This document shows, piece by piece, positions 10,616 to 20,983 of a DNA stretch of 64,000 bases. Source of the stretch: Thermobifida alba. GTDB taxonomy: Bacteria > Actinomycetota > Actinomycetes > Streptosporangiales > Streptosporangiaceae. The translations under genes were made by a program, and so were the position numbers. Below the pieces are notes generated by a model, which worked only from the letters and a program-made list of their open reading frames with translations, searched no databases and had not been told where the DNA came from. Where the stretch lies: NCBI RefSeq assembly GCF_023208015.1, contig NZ_CP051627.1, positions 3,109,501 through 3,173,500 on the forward strand. The letters are read 5' to 3'. Within the stretch, counting starts at the first letter, position 1. Every line of letters begins with the position of its first letter.

Positions 10616-10699
10616 GTTGGAGTGCCTTTCTCACTGAGCAACAACGGACACTGAAAAAACCCGCGGAAACCCCGGTGTACCAGGGAGTCTCGCAGGTAG

Positions 10700-10772
10700 T
10701 AGCGGAGGCCGGACTTGAACCGACGACACAGCGATTATGAGCCGCTTGCTCTACCGACTGAGCTACTCCGCC
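10700..10772 (-). tRNA. tRNA-Met (CAT)
   Basis: The 73-nt cloverleaf has acceptor GGCGGAG/CTCCGCT with a terminal G-U pair, D-arm TAGCTCAGTCGGTAGAGC, anticodon loop CTCATAA (CAT) and T-loop GGTTCAAGTCC. It appears to be an elongator tRNA, because an initiator normally has a mismatched 1-72 C-A pair. CCA is not encoded. Confidence 0.93.
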
Positions 10773-10883
10773 TGGAACCGGGAAACCGGTCCATCTGCGA
10801 TGATACCGGAACCCGAGTGGACCGACGGCTGACCTTGCCGCCGACCGACCACCTGAGTGGATCGGATCTCAATCAAGTGGTGG

Positions 10884-10956
10884 AGCCCCTTTACGGAATC
10901 GAACCGTAGACCTTCTCCTTACCATGGAGACGCTCTGCCGACTGAGCTAAAGGGGC
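10884..10956 (-). tRNA. tRNA-Thr (GGT)
   Basis: The 73-nt cloverleaf has acceptor GCCCCTT/AAGGGGC, D-arm TAGCTCAGTCGGCAGAGC, anticodon loop ATGGTAA (GGT) and T-loop GGTTCGATTCC. CCA is not encoded. It is the first gene of the tRNA-Thr, tRNA-Met, rpmG unit and forms the left border of the accessory region. Confidence 0.94.
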
Positions 10957-11067: not shown

Positions 11068-13149
11068 TCAGTCCGCCACCCAGACGTTGGACATGGCGTC
11101 GCGCTGGATGGTCCGGATGGCCGCCGGAAGGCCGAGCCGGTGCAGCGCGTCCGGCAGGCGGGTGTCGTGGGTGAAGACGACGAGCTGGCGGTGGCGCCCC
11201 ACCTCGGCCAGCACCGCGGCCAGCCCCTCCACGGTCTCGGTGTCCATCGCCTGGACGGGGTCGTCCAGCAGCAGGAAACCGAACGGGTTGCCGGGCACCA
11301 GGGTGCGCGGCAGGCAGATGGAGAGCGCGAGGGCCTGGAACTCGCCCTGGCTGAGCAGCCCGGGCGCGCTGTCCGGCCCGTCGGCGCCCTCCACGCTGAC
11401 GTCGACCGCGACCCGGCGCTGCGCCCCCCTGCCGACCAGGCGCAGCGCCGCCAGGTCGATGTGCCGTTCCTGGCGCAGCCGGGCCCACACCTGCTCCGCC
11501 TGGGCGGCCAGCGGGTCCAGCCGTTCGGCCCGCATCTCGCGGGCCACCGAGGAGAGCCAGTCGAGAGCCTGGCGGGCCGGTTCCAGCCGCCGGTGCGCGG
11601 TGAGCGCCTCGCGGGCGTCCTCCAGCCAGGCCCCCAGCTGCTCGGCGAGTCCGGCCCAGCCGTCGGTGGGGTCGGCGAGGCGCTCGGTGGCGGCCCGGCG
11701 CGCGGCGATCGCGGCCGAGCGCAGCCGCCGGCCGACGGTCTCGATGTGCTCGGCCAGCTCCGTCAGATCGGTGATCTCCGCACCGGCCGCCCAGTCGGCC
11801 CAGATCCGCCCCAGCTCGCTGTCCGGCGGCAGCCACGAGGGGGGCGGCGCCATCAGGAACCGCGCCTGGTCACGGGCCGCCTCGGCGCGCTGGTGGGCGG
11901 CCGCGGTGCTCGCGGCGACGGGCTCCAGCCGGGTGATCTCGGCGCGGGCTCGGCTCGCCCAGGCCGGTCCCAGCGCGTTGTGGGCGCCGCAGGCGGGGCA
12001 GTCGGTCTCGGCGGGATGCCGTTCGTGGTGGTCGAGGGCCTGGCGCAGCAGTTCGATCACGCCGCGCGCCCGGTCCCCCTTGGTGCCCGCGGTCATCGCG
12101 ATCTCCATCGCGGCTCCGCGCAGCTCGCTGACCACGTCGGTGATGAGGGACCGCTCGGGCACCGCCATGCGGCGCAGTCGGCGCAGCACGACCTGCTGGG
12201 CGGGGTCGGCGGGCCCGTTGTCCGCGGCGACGGCGGCGAGCCGGTCGAGGTCGAGGGAGGGCGCGGTGAGCAGTTCGACGGCGGTCCTGGCCCGCGGATC
12301 GGCGCTGGCGCGCAGCTGGTCCAGCAGGTAGGGCAGGTCGCGGGCGGGGCGTTGGGCGGTCTTGGCGAGCCGGTCGCACGCCTTGGCCAGGCGGCGTTCG
12401 ATCTCGGTGAGCTCGCTCAGGCCCAGCAGGGTGGTCAGTGTGTCGTACAGCTCGGCCGAGCGCCCGGTGACCGTGCGTCCCAGCTCGTCGTAGGAGAGGA
12501 AGGGCCGGTACCGGGCGAGGTCCTCGCCCCAGCCGAGGCTGGCCAGGCTGCCGACCTCGCCCGTGGGCAGGACGACCTCCCCCCGGGCGGAGCGGACGCT
12601 GTCGCCGGTCCAGAGCCGGGTGACCCGGGTGGCCCCCTCCTCCCCCGTCCGCCGAAGTTCTACGGTGATCTCGGTCACATCGTCGAAGTGGAGGTTGCGC
12701 CATCCGTCGCGCCAGGCCGCGGGCATTCCGTCCCAGCGGAGGTTGCGTCCGGTCAGCGCGGCCTCGACCGCCTCGGCGAAACTGGACTTCCCGGAACCGT
12801 TGCGGCCGACGATCACGGTCAGGCCGGGGCCGGGCGGGAATTCGAGGGTGGCGGCGCGGCCGATGCCGCGGAAGCCCTGGACGCGGACCCGGCTGAGGTA
12901 GCAGCGCCGGGGGTGCCGCGCGGGCGGGACCGGTTCGGTGTCCGGGAGTCGCAGGTCGACCTGTTCCCCGCGGGCGCAGGCGGCCAGTGCGTCCTCGCTG
13001 TGGACGGCCGCGAGCACCCACTGGCGCGCCGCGGGCCCCAGCGGCGACCGGGCCAACCGCTCCCCCAGGGCTCCGGCCGGGGAGGAGCCCGACCGCTGCT
13101 TGGAGGGTTCTGCGGGGAATCCGGCCTGGGAGGTCGTCACCGTCGTCAC
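11068..13149 (-). CDS. Rad50/RecF-like coiled-coil ATPase with CxxC hook
   Basis: This 693-residue protein has a split ABC/SMC-type ATPase head. The Walker A is GRNGSGKSS (about residues 114-122), the signature LSQGEFQAL (about 598), the Walker B FLLLDDPVQAMD (about 625) and the switch histidine VVFTHD. Between them lie Ala/Arg/Glu-rich helical stretches and one CPAC at residues 384-387, which looks like a Rad50-type zinc hook. Such proteins act in DNA repair or as defence ATPases; the partner nuclease is not seen here. GTG 13149 is chosen because GGAG lies eight bases upstream. It follows the SMC gene by 167 bp, in the place where jetD normally stands in DUF2397/DUF2398/TIGR02680 loci. I do not recognise an exact named family. 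Confidence 0.75.
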   Translation of the reverse strand: MTTVTTSQAGFPAEPSKQRSGSSPAGALGERLARSPLGPAARQWVLAAVHSEDALAACARGEQVDLRLPDTEPVPPARHPRRCYLSRVRVQGFRGIGRAATLEFPPGPGLTVIVGRNGSGKSSFAEAVEAALTGRNLRWDGMPAAWRDGWRNLHFDDVTEITVELRRTGEEGATRVTRLWTGDSVRSARGEVVLPTGEVGSLASLGWGEDLARYRPFLSYDELGRTVTGRSAELYDTLTTLLGLSELTEIERRLAKACDRLAKTAQRPARDLPYLLDQLRASADPRARTAVELLTAPSLDLDRLAAVAADNGPADPAQQVVLRRLRRMAVPERSLITDVVSELRGAAMEIAMTAGTKGDRARGVIELLRQALDHHERHPAETDCPACGAHNALGPAWASRARAEITRLEPVAASTAAAHQRAEAARDQARFLMAPPPSWLPPDSELGRIWADWAAGAEITDLTELAEHIETVGRRLRSAAIAARRAATERLADPTDGWAGLAEQLGAWLEDAREALTAHRRLEPARQALDWLSSVAREMRAERLDPLAAQAEQVWARLRQERHIDLAALRLVGRGAQRRVAVDVSVEGADGPDSAPGLLSQGEFQALALSICLPRTLVPGNPFGFLLLDDPVQAMDTETVEGLAAVLAEVGRHRQLVVFTHDTRLPDALHRLGLPAAIRTIQRDAMSNVWVAD

Positions 13150-13316
13150 AACACTGCTCCGTTCGTGGCCTCGCCTTTGCAGATTAGGACAGATGGGGCG
13201 AATTGCACACCGGTCCCGTGAGTCCGACCGCGCCGGCCGGAGGGGGCGGAAGGTGTCCGCCCCGCACCGGCTCGACCCGTCTCCGCCACCCCGCCCTGCG
13301 GAAGAAGTGGCCTTTG

Positions 13317-16300
13317 TCACACTCCATTGAGACGACGCCGGTTGCCGTCCCAGGTGAAGTGCAGGGTGGCGATCCCGGGTTCGGCCGGATCGCGCAGGCA
13401 TTCGTAGATGTTGAGCCGGGGAACGCTCGGGAAGCATCCCCAGACGCGCTCGGAGGTGAGGACGAAGTCGAGGTCCAGTTCCACGAGCATGCCGAGGAGG
13501 CGGCCGTGGGTGGGCTCGTCGACCTTGGCGAAGGCATCGTCGAGCAGGATGAGCCGGGGAGTCTGCGGCGCGTCCAGCGCCAGCGCGCTGAACTGGGCCG
13601 CCGCCGCGGCGAACAGCACCAGATAGGCGATGACCCGCTGCTCCCCCTGGCTGAGGGCGGTGCGGTGGGTGAGGCGGCGCTCACGCTCGGGGTGGGCGGC
13701 GTCGGTGACGTAGACGGTGAAGGCGAACCAGGACCGGTAGTCCAGCGCGGCGCGCAACTGCGCCCCGCCGGTGACCGTGGGGTCGAGGCGGCGGATCGCC
13801 TCGATGCAGCGGCGCAGGGCGTCGCGCAGCCGGGTGGTCTCGACCCGGGTGCGCTTCTCGGCGGGGCGGTTCAGCAGCCGCACCACCGCGTGGATGTCCT
13901 CGTCGGCGTCGGGGGCGAGCCGCCACTCCAGCCGGACCCCCAGCCCCTGGGAGGTGGTGACCTCGCCCAGGACGCTGTTCATCGCGTCGATGAGCTCCCG
14001 GGCCTCGGTGATCTGGCGGGACAGGTGGCCGGCGAGTTCGCCGAGGAGGTGCCGCTCGTAGGCCTCCTCCTCCCGCACCGCCGCGGTCTCCTCTGCCGCG
14101 GCGATCTCCTCCCGCAGCCGCTCGACGTAGTCGACGATGTCGTGCCCGCCGTGGTCGTCGTGGACGGTGACCCGCTTCACCCCCGCGGGCTCGGTGAGTT
14201 CGGTGCGGGCTCCGACGGCGGGGGCCGCGGCCAGACCGCGGTGCAGTTCCTCGTGGCCGCGCAGGATCCCGCTGTCGTCGACGTCCGCCGCGGCCTCGTC
14301 GAGCCCGGACTCGACCGCGGTGACCAGGGCGTCGAGGACCTGGATGCGCTTGGTGAGGTCGTCGCTGCGCTCGGGGTCGGACTCCGCCGCGTCGTAGGCG
14401 GCGACCGGTCCGTCCGCGGCGGCGAGGTCGGTGAGCCCCGCCGCGGCCAGCAGCCCCCGGTCGACCTCCCCGGCCGGGGTGGCGAGCATGGCCCGCAGCC
14501 GGGCTCCGGCGGCCAGTGCGCGGCGGGCCTGTTCGGCCCGCTCGACGGTGGCGGCGCCGTGCCGGGTCTCCACGGCGACCCGTTCGTCACGGGCGCGCTG
14601 GGCCTCCCGTTCGAGGGCGGGCAGCGCCTCGTCGGCCGCGTGGGCACGGCCGCGCACCTGCTCGATGGCGCTCTCGATCTGGGCCGGGTCGGCGGCGCCG
14701 GCGCGGTCGGTCAACTCGGTCTCGCGCCGGACCGTGATCATGTCGTTGATGGCGGCTCCGGCCGCGTCCTCGGCCACGACCCGGGCCTCGCGGGCGCGCT
14801 TCCAGTCGGCGACGTGCCTGCGGTAGTCCTCCAGGCGCCCGGCGAGGATCTCCAGGTCCCGGTGGGCCGCGGCGATCTGGACGCGCAGCGCCCCCAGGGA
14901 GCCGCGGATCCGGGCGAGCTCCTTGTCGTGGGCGGGCAGACGGTGCTCCAGGGCCAGCTCGGCGAGGGCGGCGCGGTGGGCGAGCGCGGTGGTGCGCGCG
15001 GCGTCGGCGGCGCTGCGGGCCGCGGCGTGGTCGCGCACGGCCGCGGCCAGCCAGGCGCGGGCGTCGTCCAGGACGGCCCAGGCCGCGGTGAGGCCGGCGC
15101 CCGAGGGCACCGACCGGTTGATCCGCAGCAGGCTCTCGTGGCGGTTGTCGATTCCGGCCCGGCGTTCCTGGGCTTCGGCGAGCAGCGCCTCGGCCATCTC
15201 GATGCGCCGCTCCGCCTTGGCCCGGTGGCGTTCCAGGGCCTGGGTGCGGGCCTCCTCGCCGATGTACTCGGCGGCGGCCTTGCGGTGGCAGCCCTGGGCG
15301 ACGCCGAGCCGCCAGCGCCCGTCGAGGGAGACGTGGTTCTCCGAGCCGCCGCGGGGGTCGGAGGCGCTGTGGAACCAGGAGGGTTCGGACTGCGTCTGGG
15401 GCTCCTCGCCGTCGTGCAGGCGGACGGAGGCGAGGAGGGCCACGACGGCGTCCCGGTCGACCTTCGCGGAGCTGGCGGTCTCGACCGGGACCAGGACGTC
15501 GTTGAGGGTGCGCCCGCTCAGCGGTTCGACCGGGCTGAGCAGCAGGTCGTGGGTGCTGTGGTCGACGACCGTGCCCTCGGGGGTGATGAGTCCGGACAGG
15601 AGGCCGGACGCCTCCAGGGCCGCTTCGAGTCCGGCGCGCTCCTCCGCGGAGAGGTGGTCGGCGAAGTCGACCGCCAGGTAGAGGGGGACCCCGGCGTCGG
15701 GGTCGCGCTGCGCGGTGGCCCAGGCCGGGCGGGGCGCGGTGACGGGCGCGGTCTCGTCCGCGCGGCGTTCGGCGAGTTCGTCGAGTTCGGCTGCGAGGTC
15801 GCGTTCCTCGCCCAGGGCCGCGTCCCGGGCCGCGCGCACCCGTTCCAGCAGCGGTTCGACGACGGCGTGGGCGTCGCGCGCCACGGTCCCGGGCAGGTGC
15901 GCGGGGAGGACGCGGAAGTCGTCGTCGAGCGGGGGCTCCACGCTCTGCTCCAGGGCGTCCAGCGCCGCGTCGAGGTCGGCGTCGGGCACCGCGGCCCGCA
16001 GGGCGTTGCACCAATCGCGCACGTCGGCGGCGTAGTCGGCGCTGGCCTCGCGGACCTTCTCGATGGCGGCGCGCTCGCGTTCGCGGGCGCGTTCGACGTG
16101 GCTGTCGGCCCACTCGGCCTCACTGGTGAGGTCGGCCTCACGGCGCTCGGCCGACTCCAGTTCCAGGGCGCGCCGGTACAGGTCCTCGGCGACGGCCTCG
16201 CGTTCGGCCGCGACCGCGTCGGCGCGTCCGAGGCGGTCGTGGAGTTCGGCGAGCCGCCGGCGCAGCGCGGCGACCTCGATGCCGAGCACGGGCGGGCGTT

Positions 16301-17657
16301 CGACGGCCTGCTCCAGCCCTTCGAGGTTGACCTGGGTGGTGTTCTCCCGCGCGGCGAGGGTGACCCGGACCGGCTGCGGGACCTCGCCGAGGACGGCGGG
16401 GTCGATCCCGGAGGCGCGCGCGGTGTCGCGCAGGCCGAGGTGGAGCCGGCGCAGGCCGCCGATGCCGCGTTCGATGGCCGCGCTGTCGCGGTCGATCCGG
16501 TGGTGGGCCTGGGACTCCGCGGAGCGGGCGTACTCGCCGGCGACCCAGGCGGCCTCGGCGGCGCGGATGTAGGCCGCCACGGCGGCGTAGCGGGCCTCGC
16601 GTTCCCCCTCGGTGGGCCCGTTCCCCGGGTGCGCGGCGCTGGCGCTCAGGGTCGCGGCGTCGGACTTCGCGGTGTCGCGGCTGCGGCGCAGGCGGTCGCG
16701 TTCCTCCTGGATGCTGCTCTCCGCGGAGACCAGGGAGTCGAGTTCGGACTCCAGCCGGGCGAGTTCGGCGTCGCGCTCCTCGAAGGCGGTGATCTGGGCG
16801 CGCACGGCCCCGGCCTGCTGGCGCAGGGCTCCGTGCAGGTAGCCGCGGTAGTGGCCGAGGAACTCGGTGGCGTGCTCGTGTGCGGTGCGCAGCGCGGCCA
16901 GGCGGGCGCGGGCGCTCTCCAGGTCGGTGATGTTGCGGGCGACCTCGTCGAGGACGGTGTCGTCCATGGGCGGCAGCGCCTCGGAGAGCACGGAGGCGAG
17001 TTCCCCCGCTTCGAGGCGGTCGCCGACGGTGGGACGGCGCAGCCGGTAGAGCAGGTGGATGAGGTTGCGGTACCGCACGGGGTCGTCGAGGCCGAACAGG
17101 TCGCGCATGACCCTGGTGCGGTAGCCGAGCGCGGTGTCGTAGCAGTTGTCGGGGCCGACGGCGGCGCGCAGGCGCTCCACGGACAGCGGACGGCCGCCGT
17201 CGACGAGGACGAGGTCGTCGCCGACGCGGCGGTCGGTGACGAAGAACACCGCGCGCGCCTCGGGCTGGTCGGGGACGGCGATGACGGCGGCGCCGAGGGT
17301 GCGCCGGCACGGCCGGCCCTCCTCGCCGCGGCGGACGAACTCGACCCACAGGTAGCCCAGGGAGGTGTCGGCCTCAGCGGTGGCGGCGCCGCCGGTCTCG
17401 GTGGTGGTGCGCCCCTCCAGCATCAGCCAGCGCAGGCTGGTGCGGCTGGTGCCGGTGGTGTCGAGGCGGCGGGCGTCCCCGTCGAGGAGGAAGGGCAGCA
17501 GCATCTCCAGCGCCTTGGACTTGCCCGCCCCGTTGCGTCCGCGCAGCAGCAGGCGTCCGTCGGCGAACTCGAAGACGTGGTCGTCGTACTGCCAGACGTT
17601 GTGGATTCCGGCGCGTTCGAGCCGGTAGCGCTTGGGGAGGGTGGTGTCCTGTCTCAT
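13317..17657 (-). CDS. MukB/JetC-like SMC ATPase (TIGR02680 family)
   Basis: This 1446-residue SMC-like protein has Walker A GRNGAGKSK at residues 40-48, long coiled-coil regions rich in Ala, Arg and Glu, and a C-terminal half-head with ALSQGEQRV and RLILLDDAF near residues 1330-1370, ending TSERVWG. The N-terminal KRYRLERAGIHNVWQYDDHVFEFADGRLLLRG is typical of TIGR02680, the SMC component of the DUF2397/DUF2398 Wadjet-type systems. Wadjet complexes extrude loops on small circular DNA and cleave it with JetD. The ATG at 17657 has GGAGGA seven bases upstream. All ATPase motifs look intact. It is 121 bp downstream of the DUF2398 gene. Confidence 0.88.
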   Translation of the reverse strand: MRQDTTLPKRYRLERAGIHNVWQYDDHVFEFADGRLLLRGRNGAGKSKALEMLLPFLLDGDARRLDTTGTSRTSLRWLMLEGRTTTETGGAATAEADTSLGYLWVEFVRRGEEGRPCRRTLGAAVIAVPDQPEARAVFFVTDRRVGDDLVLVDGGRPLSVERLRAAVGPDNCYDTALGYRTRVMRDLFGLDDPVRYRNLIHLLYRLRRPTVGDRLEAGELASVLSEALPPMDDTVLDEVARNITDLESARARLAALRTAHEHATEFLGHYRGYLHGALRQQAGAVRAQITAFEERDAELARLESELDSLVSAESSIQEERDRLRRSRDTAKSDAATLSASAAHPGNGPTEGEREARYAAVAAYIRAAEAAWVAGEYARSAESQAHHRIDRDSAAIERGIGGLRRLHLGLRDTARASGIDPAVLGEVPQPVRVTLAARENTTQVNLEGLEQAVERPPVLGIEVAALRRRLAELHDRLGRADAVAAEREAVAEDLYRRALELESAERREADLTSEAEWADSHVERARERERAAIEKVREASADYAADVRDWCNALRAAVPDADLDAALDALEQSVEPPLDDDFRVLPAHLPGTVARDAHAVVEPLLERVRAARDAALGEERDLAAELDELAERRADETAPVTAPRPAWATAQRDPDAGVPLYLAVDFADHLSAEERAGLEAALEASGLLSGLITPEGTVVDHSTHDLLLSPVEPLSGRTLNDVLVPVETASSAKVDRDAVVALLASVRLHDGEEPQTQSEPSWFHSASDPRGGSENHVSLDGRWRLGVAQGCHRKAAAEYIGEEARTQALERHRAKAERRIEMAEALLAEAQERRAGIDNRHESLLRINRSVPSGAGLTAAWAVLDDARAWLAAAVRDHAAARSAADAARTTALAHRAALAELALEHRLPAHDKELARIRGSLGALRVQIAAAHRDLEILAGRLEDYRRHVADWKRAREARVVAEDAAGAAINDMITVRRETELTDRAGAADPAQIESAIEQVRGRAHAADEALPALEREAQRARDERVAVETRHGAATVERAEQARRALAAGARLRAMLATPAGEVDRGLLAAAGLTDLAAADGPVAAYDAAESDPERSDDLTKRIQVLDALVTAVESGLDEAAADVDDSGILRGHEELHRGLAAAPAVGARTELTEPAGVKRVTVHDDHGGHDIVDYVERLREEIAAAEETAAVREEEAYERHLLGELAGHLSRQITEARELIDAMNSVLGEVTTSQGLGVRLEWRLAPDADEDIHAVVRLLNRPAEKRTRVETTRLRDALRRCIEAIRRLDPTVTGGAQLRAALDYRSWFAFTVYVTDAAHPERERRLTHRTALSQGEQRVIAYLVLFAAAAAQFSALALDAPQTPRLILLDDAFAKVDEPTHGRLLGMLVELDLDFVLTSERVWGCFPSVPRLNIYECLRDPAEPGIATLHFTWDGNRRRLNGV

Positions 17658-17778
17658 CGGCCGTCCTCCGCTCCGTACCGCTCGTCCTGGTGCCCGCCGC
17701 GCCGGACGGTCGGTGTGCCCGGGGTGGTGCCATTGTCCCGGACGGGAGAGATGTCCGGGAGGCTCTCATCCGTTCCGC

Positions 17779-18987
17779 TCATTCGGCGCCGCTCCGGGCG
17801 AAGGCGGAGTCGCGGTAGCGCGCGGCGGCCGCGAGCAGCCGCCACCCCTCGGTCAGCCGCTCTGCGGCATCCGCGGCGGTCCGGTCCAGCAGGCGGCTGT
17901 CGCGGAGCCGGAACAGGACGCGTTCGGCGAGGTCGTCGGGGTCGGGCACGTGGCTGAGGGCGGTGCGCGACCACTGCCGGGCGTCGTCGACGACGGCGGC
18001 GAGTTCGGCGTCGAGAAGGTCGGCCGGGATCGGGACCGTGTGGCTGGACTGCGACGGGGCGAGCATGGTGGCCAGACGGGACAGCAGGGTGAGGGCGGCC
18101 TGGCCGACCGGACCGGTGCCGGGGAAGGTGGCGGGCTGGGCCACGCCCCGGGCGTCGGCCGCCGTCTCGCCCGGCATGATCAGGGCCACGCCCTCGGCCC
18201 GGACCTCCGTCTCGCAGCCGAGCAGCTCGGCGAGCTCCGCCGCGGCGCGCCACTGGTGTCCGGCCAGCCGGGCGCGGTGGGCGTCGCCGAGCTCCGCCCG
18301 GTAGACGACGGCGGTCTCGGCGAGGAGACGGCGCAGGGTGAGCTCCACGGCGTGCTCGTCGGCGGACACGGAGTCGTGCTGGGCCAGGGCGACGAAGTCC
18401 TCCGGGGTCGTGGTGGAGTGCGGTGCGCGGGCGAGCACGTGCGCCGCGATTCCGTGGTTGACGGCCAGGGCGACCCGGTGGGTTCCGTCCGCGGCGTAGT
18501 CGGCCAGGCTGCCGTCGGTCTCGGTGAGCGCCCCCCAGTCGACGAGCCTGGTGAGCCCGGCGACGAAAGCCCGCCGCTCTCCCAGGCGCGCCTCGGGGTC
18601 GAGGGCCAGTCCGGCGTCGCGGGCCGCGTCGCGGACCCCGGCGGCGAGCTCGGCGACGGTGGTGTGCGGGGCCGTCTCGGCGAGGGCCGCCAGGGTCAGG
18701 GTCAGGTAGGTGTAGGCGCGGGGGGTGAACGGCGCTCCGCTGGTGCGGAGCAGCGGGGTGGTGACGGTGCGCACCAGCCCGGTCTTCACCAGTCTGGCGT
18801 GGTCGTCGGCGACGACCAGTTCGTAGCCGAGGACCCGCTGGAACCGCCGGATGAGCCAGTCGGAGTGGGCCTGGACGAGCGCGAAGTCCTCGGGGTGGCT
18901 GTGCGCGGTGATGAGCGGGTCCGCCAGAAGTCGGCGGGCCGCGGCCTGACGCTCGATGGTGAGCGCGATGTCCTCCTTTGCGGCCAC
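17779..18987 (-). CDS. DUF2398 protein (TIGR02678; JetB-like Wadjet component)
   Basis: This 402-residue protein fits TIGR02678/DUF2398 in length and in pattern: ERQAAARRLLADPLITAHSHPEDFALVQAHSDWLIRRFQRVLGY at the N terminus, then winged-helix-like segments with Arg-rich ends. Such proteins are thought to be the KITE (MukE/ScpB-like) subunit beside the SMC. The start is GTG 18987. It stands between the truncated DUF2397 gene (62 bp upstream) and the SMC gene and is probably in the same operon. It seems full length. Confidence 0.85.
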   Translation of the reverse strand: MAAKEDIALTIERQAAARRLLADPLITAHSHPEDFALVQAHSDWLIRRFQRVLGYELVVADDHARLVKTGLVRTVTTPLLRTSGAPFTPRAYTYLTLTLAALAETAPHTTVAELAAGVRDAARDAGLALDPEARLGERRAFVAGLTRLVDWGALTETDGSLADYAADGTHRVALAVNHGIAAHVLARAPHSTTTPEDFVALAQHDSVSADEHAVELTLRRLLAETAVVYRAELGDAHRARLAGHQWRAAAELAELLGCETEVRAEGVALIMPGETAADARGVAQPATFPGTGPVGQAALTLLSRLATMLAPSQSSHTVPIPADLLDAELAAVVDDARQWSRTALSHVPDPDDLAERVLFRLRDSRLLDRTAADAAERLTEGWRLLAAAARYRDSAFARSGAE

Positions 18988-19049
18988 GGTCTGGCGTCAC
19001 CTTCCTGACTGGTGCGTTGGGCGTGCTTGCGGGGCGGGCGGGGCGGCCG

Positions 19050-19790
19050 CTACGCCTCGGGGCTGTCGGCGCCGTCCGGGGCGTTCCCGGCCGCCGGGGC
19101 CGCCGTCTCCTCCGGGGGCGTGCCGGTGGGCGCCACGGCGTCGGCCTCCTGACCGGAGCCGTCCCGGTCCGGGTCGGTCTGGGCGTAGGGGGTGGCGCGC
19201 AGCCGCAGTCCGGTGAGGGTGAGGTCGCCGCCGTCCTCGCCGAGGACGAGGGCGGCACCGGAATCGTGGCGCACGTGCAGACGAATGTCGAGTTCGAGGT
19301 CGCCCGCGCTGACCGGGGCGGCGGTGGCGTCCCCGCTGCCGAGCGCCCGGGTGAGGAGCTCCATGAGCACGCCCAGCGCGGCCTCGGACATGGCGAGCCG
19401 GCCGGTGCGGGGGGTCAGGTCGGTCAGCAGGGACCGGACCTCCTCCGCGGCGGAGCGCCGCCAGTGGGCCGCGGCCTCGGCAGTGTCGCGGAGCCGTGCC
19501 TGCTGTGCGCTGTGGTCCTCGGCCGGGGCGAGCACACCGCGGCGCGCGGGCCGCACCGCCGAGGTGTCGGCGGCCGGGGTGTCCCACCAGCTGGCCGCCG
19601 CCGCGACGGTCTCCTCGGTGCTTCCGCCGAGGTGCCTGGCGGGGTGGAGCGCGAACGCGGCGGTGTAGAGCCGGTGCGCGGTGGCGGCGTCGGCCTGCTC
19701 GAACCAGGAGGCCAGTCTGAGCACGGCGGCGCGGCCGTGCGACGTCTCCGCACGTCGGTCCGCCGACTGCCGGATCACTGAGTCACCCAC
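19050..19790 (-). pseudogene. 5'-truncated DUF2397 gene (TIGR02677; JetA-like)
   Basis: The 246 residues match only the C-terminal half of DUF2397 proteins, which are normally about 490 residues. Recognisable parts are LRLASWFEQADAATAHRLYTAAFALHPARHLGG and the closing beta-rich segment. The missing part is the N-terminal half, which in kleisin-like subunits holds the contact with the SMC neck. A TGA stands in frame two codons before the GTG at 19790, and only 162 bp separate it from the next gene, so the N-terminal half is not present in another frame. The C terminus carries a Pro/Ala/Asp-rich tail. It may still be translated as a shorter protein, but I read it as a deletion remnant. Confidence 0.75.
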
Positions 19791-19952
19791 ACCTCAGCAG
19801 ACTAGAGACATCCCGGTCCCGTTGCCTCCCGAATCCACTGAGATCTGGCTCGCTCCTGTCCGAAATCCTGATTGTGATCCACCGATTCACCGGGGGCGGG
19901 ACTCCGGGGGCGCGGCCCGCCCGGTGAGCCGCCGGACCCCGCCGCTCCCCGG

Positions 19953-20672
19953 TCAGCCCCGGGACCTGGCGTAGTTCCCCGAAGCCTCCCAGTCGAGGAG
20001 GGTCACGGCCTCGTCGCCGACCACCCACGCGTCGTGGTTCGGCGCGATGCGGATCGTCTCGCCCTTCGCGGCCTCGAACTCGCTGCCGTCCGCCATCCGG
20101 ACGTGGAGGGTGCCGGAGAGGATGTAGCAGAAGTGGGTGTAGGTGCACAGGTCGGTGCCGGCGATCGGCTTGACGTGCTGCGACCAGCGCCAGCCCGGTT
20201 CGAAGACCGCTCGGGAGACGTCGCTGCCGTCGACGCGGAGCAGCTCCACGCGGCCCTTCTCGAAGGTGCGGACCTCGTCCGCCTCGGCGAAGGAGCGCTT
20301 CTGGGTCCGGGTCGGCGCGGCGGGCACGGCCTCCTCCCGGATCCGGATGCTGTACTGCCGCGCGATCCTGCCGCTGTGCAGGTCGAGCATGGACATGATC
20401 AGGTCCTGGGAGCTGTCCGGGTAGGTGCACCGCTGGACGTAGGCGGCGTGGTCGCCCTGGACGACGAACTCCTCGACCTCGTGCCGGATGCCCTGGTCGA
20501 AGACGTCGTGCAGGGACCGGCCTATGGCGTCGCGGCCGTGCACCGCCAACGGTTCGCCCGGCTCCCGGGTCTGGTCGACGAACACGTAGTCGGCCTCGTC
20601 GTCGAACCTGGAGAGGATCGCGTCGACGTCGCGGTGTTCGATGGCGCTGCTGAGTTCTTCCTGGAAAGTCAC
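19953..20672 (-). CDS. SnoaL-like/cupin two-domain protein
   Basis: This 239-residue protein joins a SnoaL-like cone domain (residues 1-110; HRDVDAILSRFDDEADYVFVDQTREPGEPLAVHGRDAIGRSLHDVF) to a cupin barrel (residues 125-235; HFCYILSGTLHVRMADGSEFEAAKGETIRIAPNHDAWVVGDE). SnoaL domains often bind or cyclise small aromatic ligands and cupins bind metal or ligands, so a binding or isomerase role is possible; no substrate can be named. Start is GTG 20672 with GGGAGG upstream. It lies between the Wadjet remnant and tRNA-Tyr. Confidence 0.7.
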   Translation of the reverse strand: MTFQEELSSAIEHRDVDAILSRFDDEADYVFVDQTREPGEPLAVHGRDAIGRSLHDVFDQGIRHEVEEFVVQGDHAAYVQRCTYPDSSQDLIMSMLDLHSGRIARQYSIRIREEAVPAAPTRTQKRSFAEADEVRTFEKGRVELLRVDGSDVSRAVFEPGWRWSQHVKPIAGTDLCTYTHFCYILSGTLHVRMADGSEFEAAKGETIRIAPNHDAWVVGDEAVTLLDWEASGNYARSRG

Positions 20673-20893: not shown

Positions 20894-20901
20894 TCGCGAT
20901 G

Positions 20902-20983
20902 TGGCAGGTGTAGGGTTCGAACCTACGTAGGCTGAGCCGGCAGATTTACAGTCTGCTCCCTTTGGCCGCTCGGGCAACCTGCC
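20902..20983 (-). tRNA. tRNA-Tyr (GTA)
   Basis: The 82-nt class II tRNA has acceptor GGCAGGT/ACCTGCC, a long variable arm, anticodon loop CTGTAAA (GTA) and T-loop GGTTCGAACC. CCA is not encoded. It is the right border of the accessory region; in Streptomyces coelicolor the equivalent tRNA-Tyr is the SLP1 integration site. Confidence 0.94.

Follow-up and report, generated by a model that had tools for sequence, protein, structure and literature searches.

In a 64,000-nucleotide window of the Thermobifida alba chromosome, we characterized a locus that encodes the JetA, JetB, and JetC families of a type II Wadjet system together with a Rad50/SbcC-like ATPase, and in which the nuclease JetD is missing. 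We infer, with a probability of roughly 0.58, that this locus is a domesticated, nuclease-less Wadjet derivative that organizes DNA without cutting it, and that the ATPase is a partner added to it. A literature search, from whose coverage most subscription papers fell out, recovered no description of such a locus.

Gene content and conservation of the locus

All genes of the locus lie on the minus strand, between tRNA-Tyr (20901..20983) upstream and tRNA-Thr (10881..10956), with the adjoining tRNA-Met (10699..10772), downstream; the three tRNAs were identified with ARAGORN and are themselves on the minus strand. In the direction of reading, the locus encodes a short JetA2 (DUF2397; 246 aa, 19050..19790), JetB2 (DUF2398; 402 aa, 17779..18987), the SMC protein JetC2 (1446 aa, 13317..17657), and the ATPase (693 aa, 11068..13149). 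Promoter-like blocks, both putative promoters conserved in four congeners, end directly at the start of the short JetA (19791..19810, minus strand) and lie upstream of the ATPase (13150..13204, minus strand; conserved in the alignment). A SnoaL/cupin gene at 19953-20672 separates tRNA-Tyr from the short JetA, and T. fusca (L011) gave no match at the corresponding position.

JetC2 matched TIGR02680 at 822 bits (cut-off, 462.85) and the PADLOC JetC2 profile with an E value of 0, and its ATPase motifs are intact. JetB2 matched PF09661 at 266 bits and PADLOC JetB2 at 3.5e-95, with TIGR02678 reaching 98.6 bits, under its cut-off of 124.65. Profile searches with Pfam, NCBIfam, and PADLOC recovered no JetD match among the locus proteins. 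An earlier note made from the letters alone had described a type II-like locus without JetD, carrying an intact TIGR02680-type SMC protein, a full DUF2398 protein, and, in the position of JetD, a 693-residue Rad50-like ATPase with a CPAC hook; these searches agree with it on each of those points.

We scanned genome contigs with the ATPase, which recovered 353 relatives, and analyzed the best 80 (78 loci). Among these best 80 of 353, 53 loci belong to the Nocardiopsaceae by title or synteny, at 58 to 91% identity, and the next match stood at 42%. The ATPase adjoins tRNA-Thr and tRNA-Met in all 53, and none of the 53 DNA stretches examined around it contained a match to JetD. JetC is on the examined stretch in 50 of the 53 loci; in the other three (L104, L105, and L109), JetC lies on another contig of the same genome. 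In one of these, Nocardiopsis endophytica (L104), other genes and no JetABC occupy the 10 kb on the upstream side of the ATPase, and JetC is found near a contig end elsewhere. Closer to the source genome, JetC is 85 to 88% identical to that of three congeners, and the arrangement is common to all four.

The distribution of the locus was also examined in searches of 394 genomes of the class, where JetB at no less than 49% identity and an orthologous ATPase occurred in the same 23 genomes and neither occurred alone (the JetB and ATPase draws apparently comprise the same 394 genomes). The ATPase is carried by all 13 genomes of the six carrier genera that were sampled at least twice, and it is core-like in these genera. 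In ten chosen non-carrier genomes of the family, tRNA-Thr, tRNA-Met, hadA, and murB are found together without JetABC or the ATPase, the two tRNAs being 10 kb apart in one of them (L219).

Sequence motifs and substitution rates were also compared. The JetC signature and Walker B motifs are present in all 71 JetD-less rows and Walker A in 69, the other two being cut by the end of the stretch; the motif patterns were built for the JetD-less clade and match 15, 2, and 3 of 20 JetD-bearing rows, so they provide no control there. JetC is predicted to hydrolyze ATP. Estimates of dN/dS (NG86, four Thermobifida genomes) were below 1 for all four genes, with values of 0.27 to 0.31 for JetB, 0.19 to 0.35 for JetC, 0.15 to 0.27 for the ATPase, and 0.25 to 0.59 for JetA as a whole gene (0.12 to 0.36 for its 180-residue core). 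Values for the comparison genes were 0.27 to 0.37 for the MurB control, 0.13 to 0.23 for HadA, and 0.11 to 0.26 for HadB, and the variable neighboring cupin gene gave 0.53 to 0.80 in three genomes.

The short JetA and the Rad50-like ATPase

The JetA of the window lacks ~290 N-terminal residues and covers the last 40% of the family profiles: its PF09660 match is confined to profile positions 288-480 of 483, its TIGR02677 match to positions 288-478 (54 bits, under the cut-off of 165.85), and its PADLOC JetA2 match (3.2e-36) to positions 309-508 of 512. The same truncation is found across the family. JetA is on the examined DNA in 45 of the 53 Nocardiopsaceae loci, and its N-terminal half is absent from 44 of these and present in one; L138 alone among the 53 gave an N-terminal match. 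In a second locus set, which includes several of the same species, all 27 JetA rows (the window among them) lack the N-terminal half. A stop codon just precedes the short JetA start in most loci, and the longer open frames upstream of the start in L094, L125, and L135 have no JetA similarity. The start motif allowed 38 of the 53 loci to be extracted, and in all 38 TAnnCTGCTG abuts the JetA start, with an exact TAGTCT in 31. This hexamer lies where the -10 element of a leaderless start would be, a pattern known from leaderless actinobacterial genes. The short JetA is, by these comparisons, apparently fixed across the family and not damaged.

Two other sources of the missing part were considered and rejected. 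In T. fusca (L011), tRNA-Tyr (starting at 12881) stands ~210 bp before the JetA start (12667), which leaves no room for an N-terminus encoded next door. Supply in trans was rejected because a search of 15 whole genomes found no N-terminal half in 8, including the T. fusca-like genome G002; in six of the others a different locus encodes it, and in Allonocardiopsis the nuclease-less locus itself does. The sole PDB relatives found for JetA and JetB were chains of those names in 9qe0 and 9qe1, which we infer to represent the N. vireti type II complex. A short-JetA profile, which includes one full-length row, aligned to residues 310-488 of the 500-residue JetA 9qe0_E (E = 0.0008), and the full Allonocardiopsis JetA aligned to residues 21-416 of the same chain (1.4e-17). 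Neck binding by a kleisin is known from MukF. By analogy with type I Wadjet as it is described in reviews, the part lost from JetA would contain the motor-pairing domain.

The ATPase is read from a conserved GTG within a longest open frame of 789 aa and matches PF02463 and PF13476. It contains a Walker A motif (GRNGSGKSS), the CPAC hook, LSQGE, and LDDPVQAMD; the hook cysteines C384 and C387 are invariant in 32 aligned sequences, with CLTC in T. fusca. Walker A is found in all 53 orthologues, and the signature, Walker B, and FTHD are found in 52; the ATPase frame is disrupted in L139. As in Rad50/SbcC, a central region carrying a CxxC hook divides the ABC head in two, and the best PDB matches are the heads of Rad50 and SMC chains. 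However, these matches cover head stretches, the best NCBIfam Rad50 model reached 27.6 bits against a cut-off of 700, and the proteins scanned from the interval bounded by the tRNAs included no Mre11/SbcD partner. The best PADLOC matches are to ATPases of defense systems, mad3 of MADS (1.5e-24) and, more weakly, LmuB of Lamassu (2.8e-16), whereas the other locus proteins match Jet or cupin/SnoaL families rather than LmuA/LmuC or MADS partners.

Searches with Pfam, NCBIfam, and PADLOC profiles found no nuclease or other effector domain in the ATPase. Its distant relatives (25 loci at 37 to 42% identity, among the best 80 of 353) are 798 to 873 aa long and have 168 to 175 residues from the H-loop on, against 34 to 46 in 49 of 52 locus orthologues and 71 to 106 in the remaining three. 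The locus ATPase thus lacks a C-terminal domain that may serve these relatives as effector. One distant relative (L069) is also without this domain. The suggestion in the earlier note that the ATPase has replaced JetD holds as far as position and co-inheritance are concerned, but with neither a nuclease domain nor the C-terminal domain it shows no sign of doing the job of JetD.

Outside the family, the nearest relatives of the ATPase, at 35 to 44% identity, are patchy across phyla, and two are on Streptomyces plasmids; a distant ATPase is carried by the conjugative Streptomyces plasmid NZ_CP109103.1 (L229). A phage origin was rejected, as no match was recovered in a phage collection at E ≤ 1e-10. 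In 17 of the 25 distant loci (L147-L171; some others end at contig edges), the ATPase is followed by a gene of 120 to 151 aa with a WPRA...CHHHxYELxPT-like signature, and the two genes are possibly an undescribed defense pair, patchy in several phyla. The small gene had no Pfam (four proteins) or PADLOC (five proteins) family over cut-off and no meaningful PDB match, and we rejected a HEPN-like identity that a reading of its motifs had suggested. One distant-ATPase copy (L077, G026:C1:4436019-4437906) is split over two frames.

Origin of the locus and JetD in carrier genomes

Beyond the family, a full JetA and a JetD accompany JetB in each of its 11 nearest loci. A phylogenetic analysis of 27 JetC proteins, comprising a selection of 16 of the 71 JetD-less rows and 11 with JetD (L237 was left out as fragmentary), placed the JetD-less proteins in one clade with a support of 100/100. 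Allonocardiopsis opalescens is the first branch of this clade, the rest being held together at 100/100, and an earlier quick tree of 41 JetC proteins agreed (SH-aLRT, 94). The Allonocardiopsis locus encodes a full-length JetA (567 aa), JetB, and JetC, and between JetC and tRNA-Thr it carries the ATPase in inverted orientation; JetD is not in this locus, and elsewhere in that genome (G062) just a JetD fragment with a stop was found. As far as gene content tells, the locus is an intermediate in which JetA is still full and JetD is gone. This basal position of a locus with a full JetA and no JetD would most simply place the loss of JetD and the gain of the ATPase first and the truncation of the kleisin later.

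The earlier note had counted a JetD in a complete second locus of the genome as evidence against its proposal, and such a gene is present at C1:1537087-1538247. It belongs to a complete type II JetABCD locus with a full JetA (C1:1529851-1538257), 1.6 Mb off, whose JetC is 43% identical to that of the nuclease-less locus. A complete JetABCD was also found in one congener (G001). Among 25 carrier genomes, the JetD model TIGR02679 scored over cut-off elsewhere in 12 (one of them, in G048, with an internal stop), gave long sub-cut-off matches in two and a fragment in one, and had no match at E ≤ 0.001 in 10, all of them genomes with a completeness of 96% or more; any JetD type that TIGR02679 misses would escape this census. 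The T. fusca-like genome had no TIGR02679 match. Of 22 JetD-bearing loci examined from the family, 20 yielded a JetA, always with the N-terminal half present (the matches start between query residues 1 and 106 of 531); the two exceptions are L183, where the piece ends too early, and L191, in which JetD was matched but JetA and JetC were not. Five Nocardiopsaceae genomes have a second JetABC locus near sodA with a full-length JetA (L245-L249). JetD lies between JetC and sodA in L249 and was not found in the other four, a possible case of parallel loss of JetD; in L245, JetC was matched in part only.

Proposed function and alternatives

PMC10586767 describes type I Wadjet as two SMC motors joined via the N-terminus of the kleisin, in which cleavage by JetD follows extrusion and action against plasmids requires all four subunits. 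For type II, PMC12647877 likewise treats the N. vireti complex as a dimer of motors. The locus shares with type II Wadjet (JetA2 JetB2 JetC2 JetD2) the three Jet families, the order A-B-C, the SMC ATPase motifs, a JetC2 SMC protein, and a JetB2 KITE protein (by PF09661), but it differs in having no JetD, no JetA N-terminus, and a Rad50-like ATPase after JetC. Since the full-length JetA2 kleisin and a JetD2 nuclease in the operon are both defining features, we do not regard it as a Wadjet member. It resembles MksBEF without MksG in Pseudomonas aeruginosa in that kleisin, KITE, and SMC genes stand together without a nuclease, but it belongs to the type II lineage and has half a kleisin, without the motor-pairing N-terminal domain at the window locus, and an extra zinc-hook ATPase. 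It perhaps works like MksBEF, with a role in the chromosome suggested by analogy.

We propose that the Nocardiopsaceae ancestor domesticated a type II Wadjet operon (JetABCD). JetC, JetB, and the short JetA would still form an ATP-driven SMC motor. With the kleisin N-terminus and JetD gone, both the Wadjet-type pairing of two motors and the cutting of DNA are predicted to be absent. Like MksBEF, the complex would compact or organize DNA, be it the chromosome or plasmids that it leaves uncut, and the Rad50-like ATPase may be an accessory DNA-binding or tethering factor. Several observations weigh against domestication: half a kleisin may be unable to support an SMC motor, JetA has a higher whole-gene dN/dS, the ATPase is disrupted in L139, JetD is found elsewhere in 12 of 25 carriers, and joint action of JetABC and the ATPase may be doubted.

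This last doubt leads to the view that the ATPase has no functional connection with JetABC and is its neighbor because both occupy a safe chromosomal site. The ATPase's own promoter-like block, its inversion in Allonocardiopsis, and its separation from JetABC in N. endophytica all speak for this view; we consider it improbable given that the class searches recovered JetB and the ATPase only together. A decaying Wadjet remnant, the first of two options in the earlier note, which called the locus partly broken, would account for the truncated JetA and the missing JetD but not for conservation across the family loci, where the short JetA recurs in 44 of 45, the conserved start with its promoter-like block in 38 of 38, and intact motifs are joined by dN/dS below 1 (0.12 to 0.36 in the JetA core). 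We rejected decay on these grounds, and it is the reading to which we give least credence.

Provision of JetD in trans by the complete JetABCD has the source genome and the 12 carriers with JetD in its favor, but it is rather unlikely because the 10 carriers without a TIGR02679 match keep the locus and the complete locus is remote in sequence. Our second choice, possible though doubtful, is that the locus still serves defense, with JetABC finding invading DNA and the ATPase acting on it by silencing or tethering instead of cutting. Co-inheritance of JetB and the ATPase, the patchy and partly plasmid-borne relatives of the latter, and its similarity to mad3 and LmuB are consistent with this. 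Uniform presence in the sampled carrier genera and a fixed chromosomal site are unlike most defense genes, however, and the ATPase has no effector domain that we could find and lacks the C-terminal domain of its relatives.

The DNA-organizing reading thus remains the one we prefer. A bolder version, which we hold tentatively and with rather low expectation, is a two-ATPase SMC machine, JetC with a half kleisin, in which the pairing of motors or gating falls to the co-inherited zinc-hook ATPase, turning a plasmid killer into a family-specific chromosome organizer. MukBEF and MksBEF have themselves been proposed, in the discussion given in PMC10586767, to have a history as defense systems. The T. 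fusca-like genome has the locus but neither a TIGR02679 match nor another JetA N-terminus. From JetABCD with a full JetA outside the family, through a full JetA without JetD in Allonocardiopsis, to half a JetA in the rest, the Nocardiopsaceae and their relatives offer an ordered series in which it may be tested what becomes of an SMC motor once its nuclease and the N-terminus of its kleisin are gone, and whether a partner of the Rad50 type could substitute for them.
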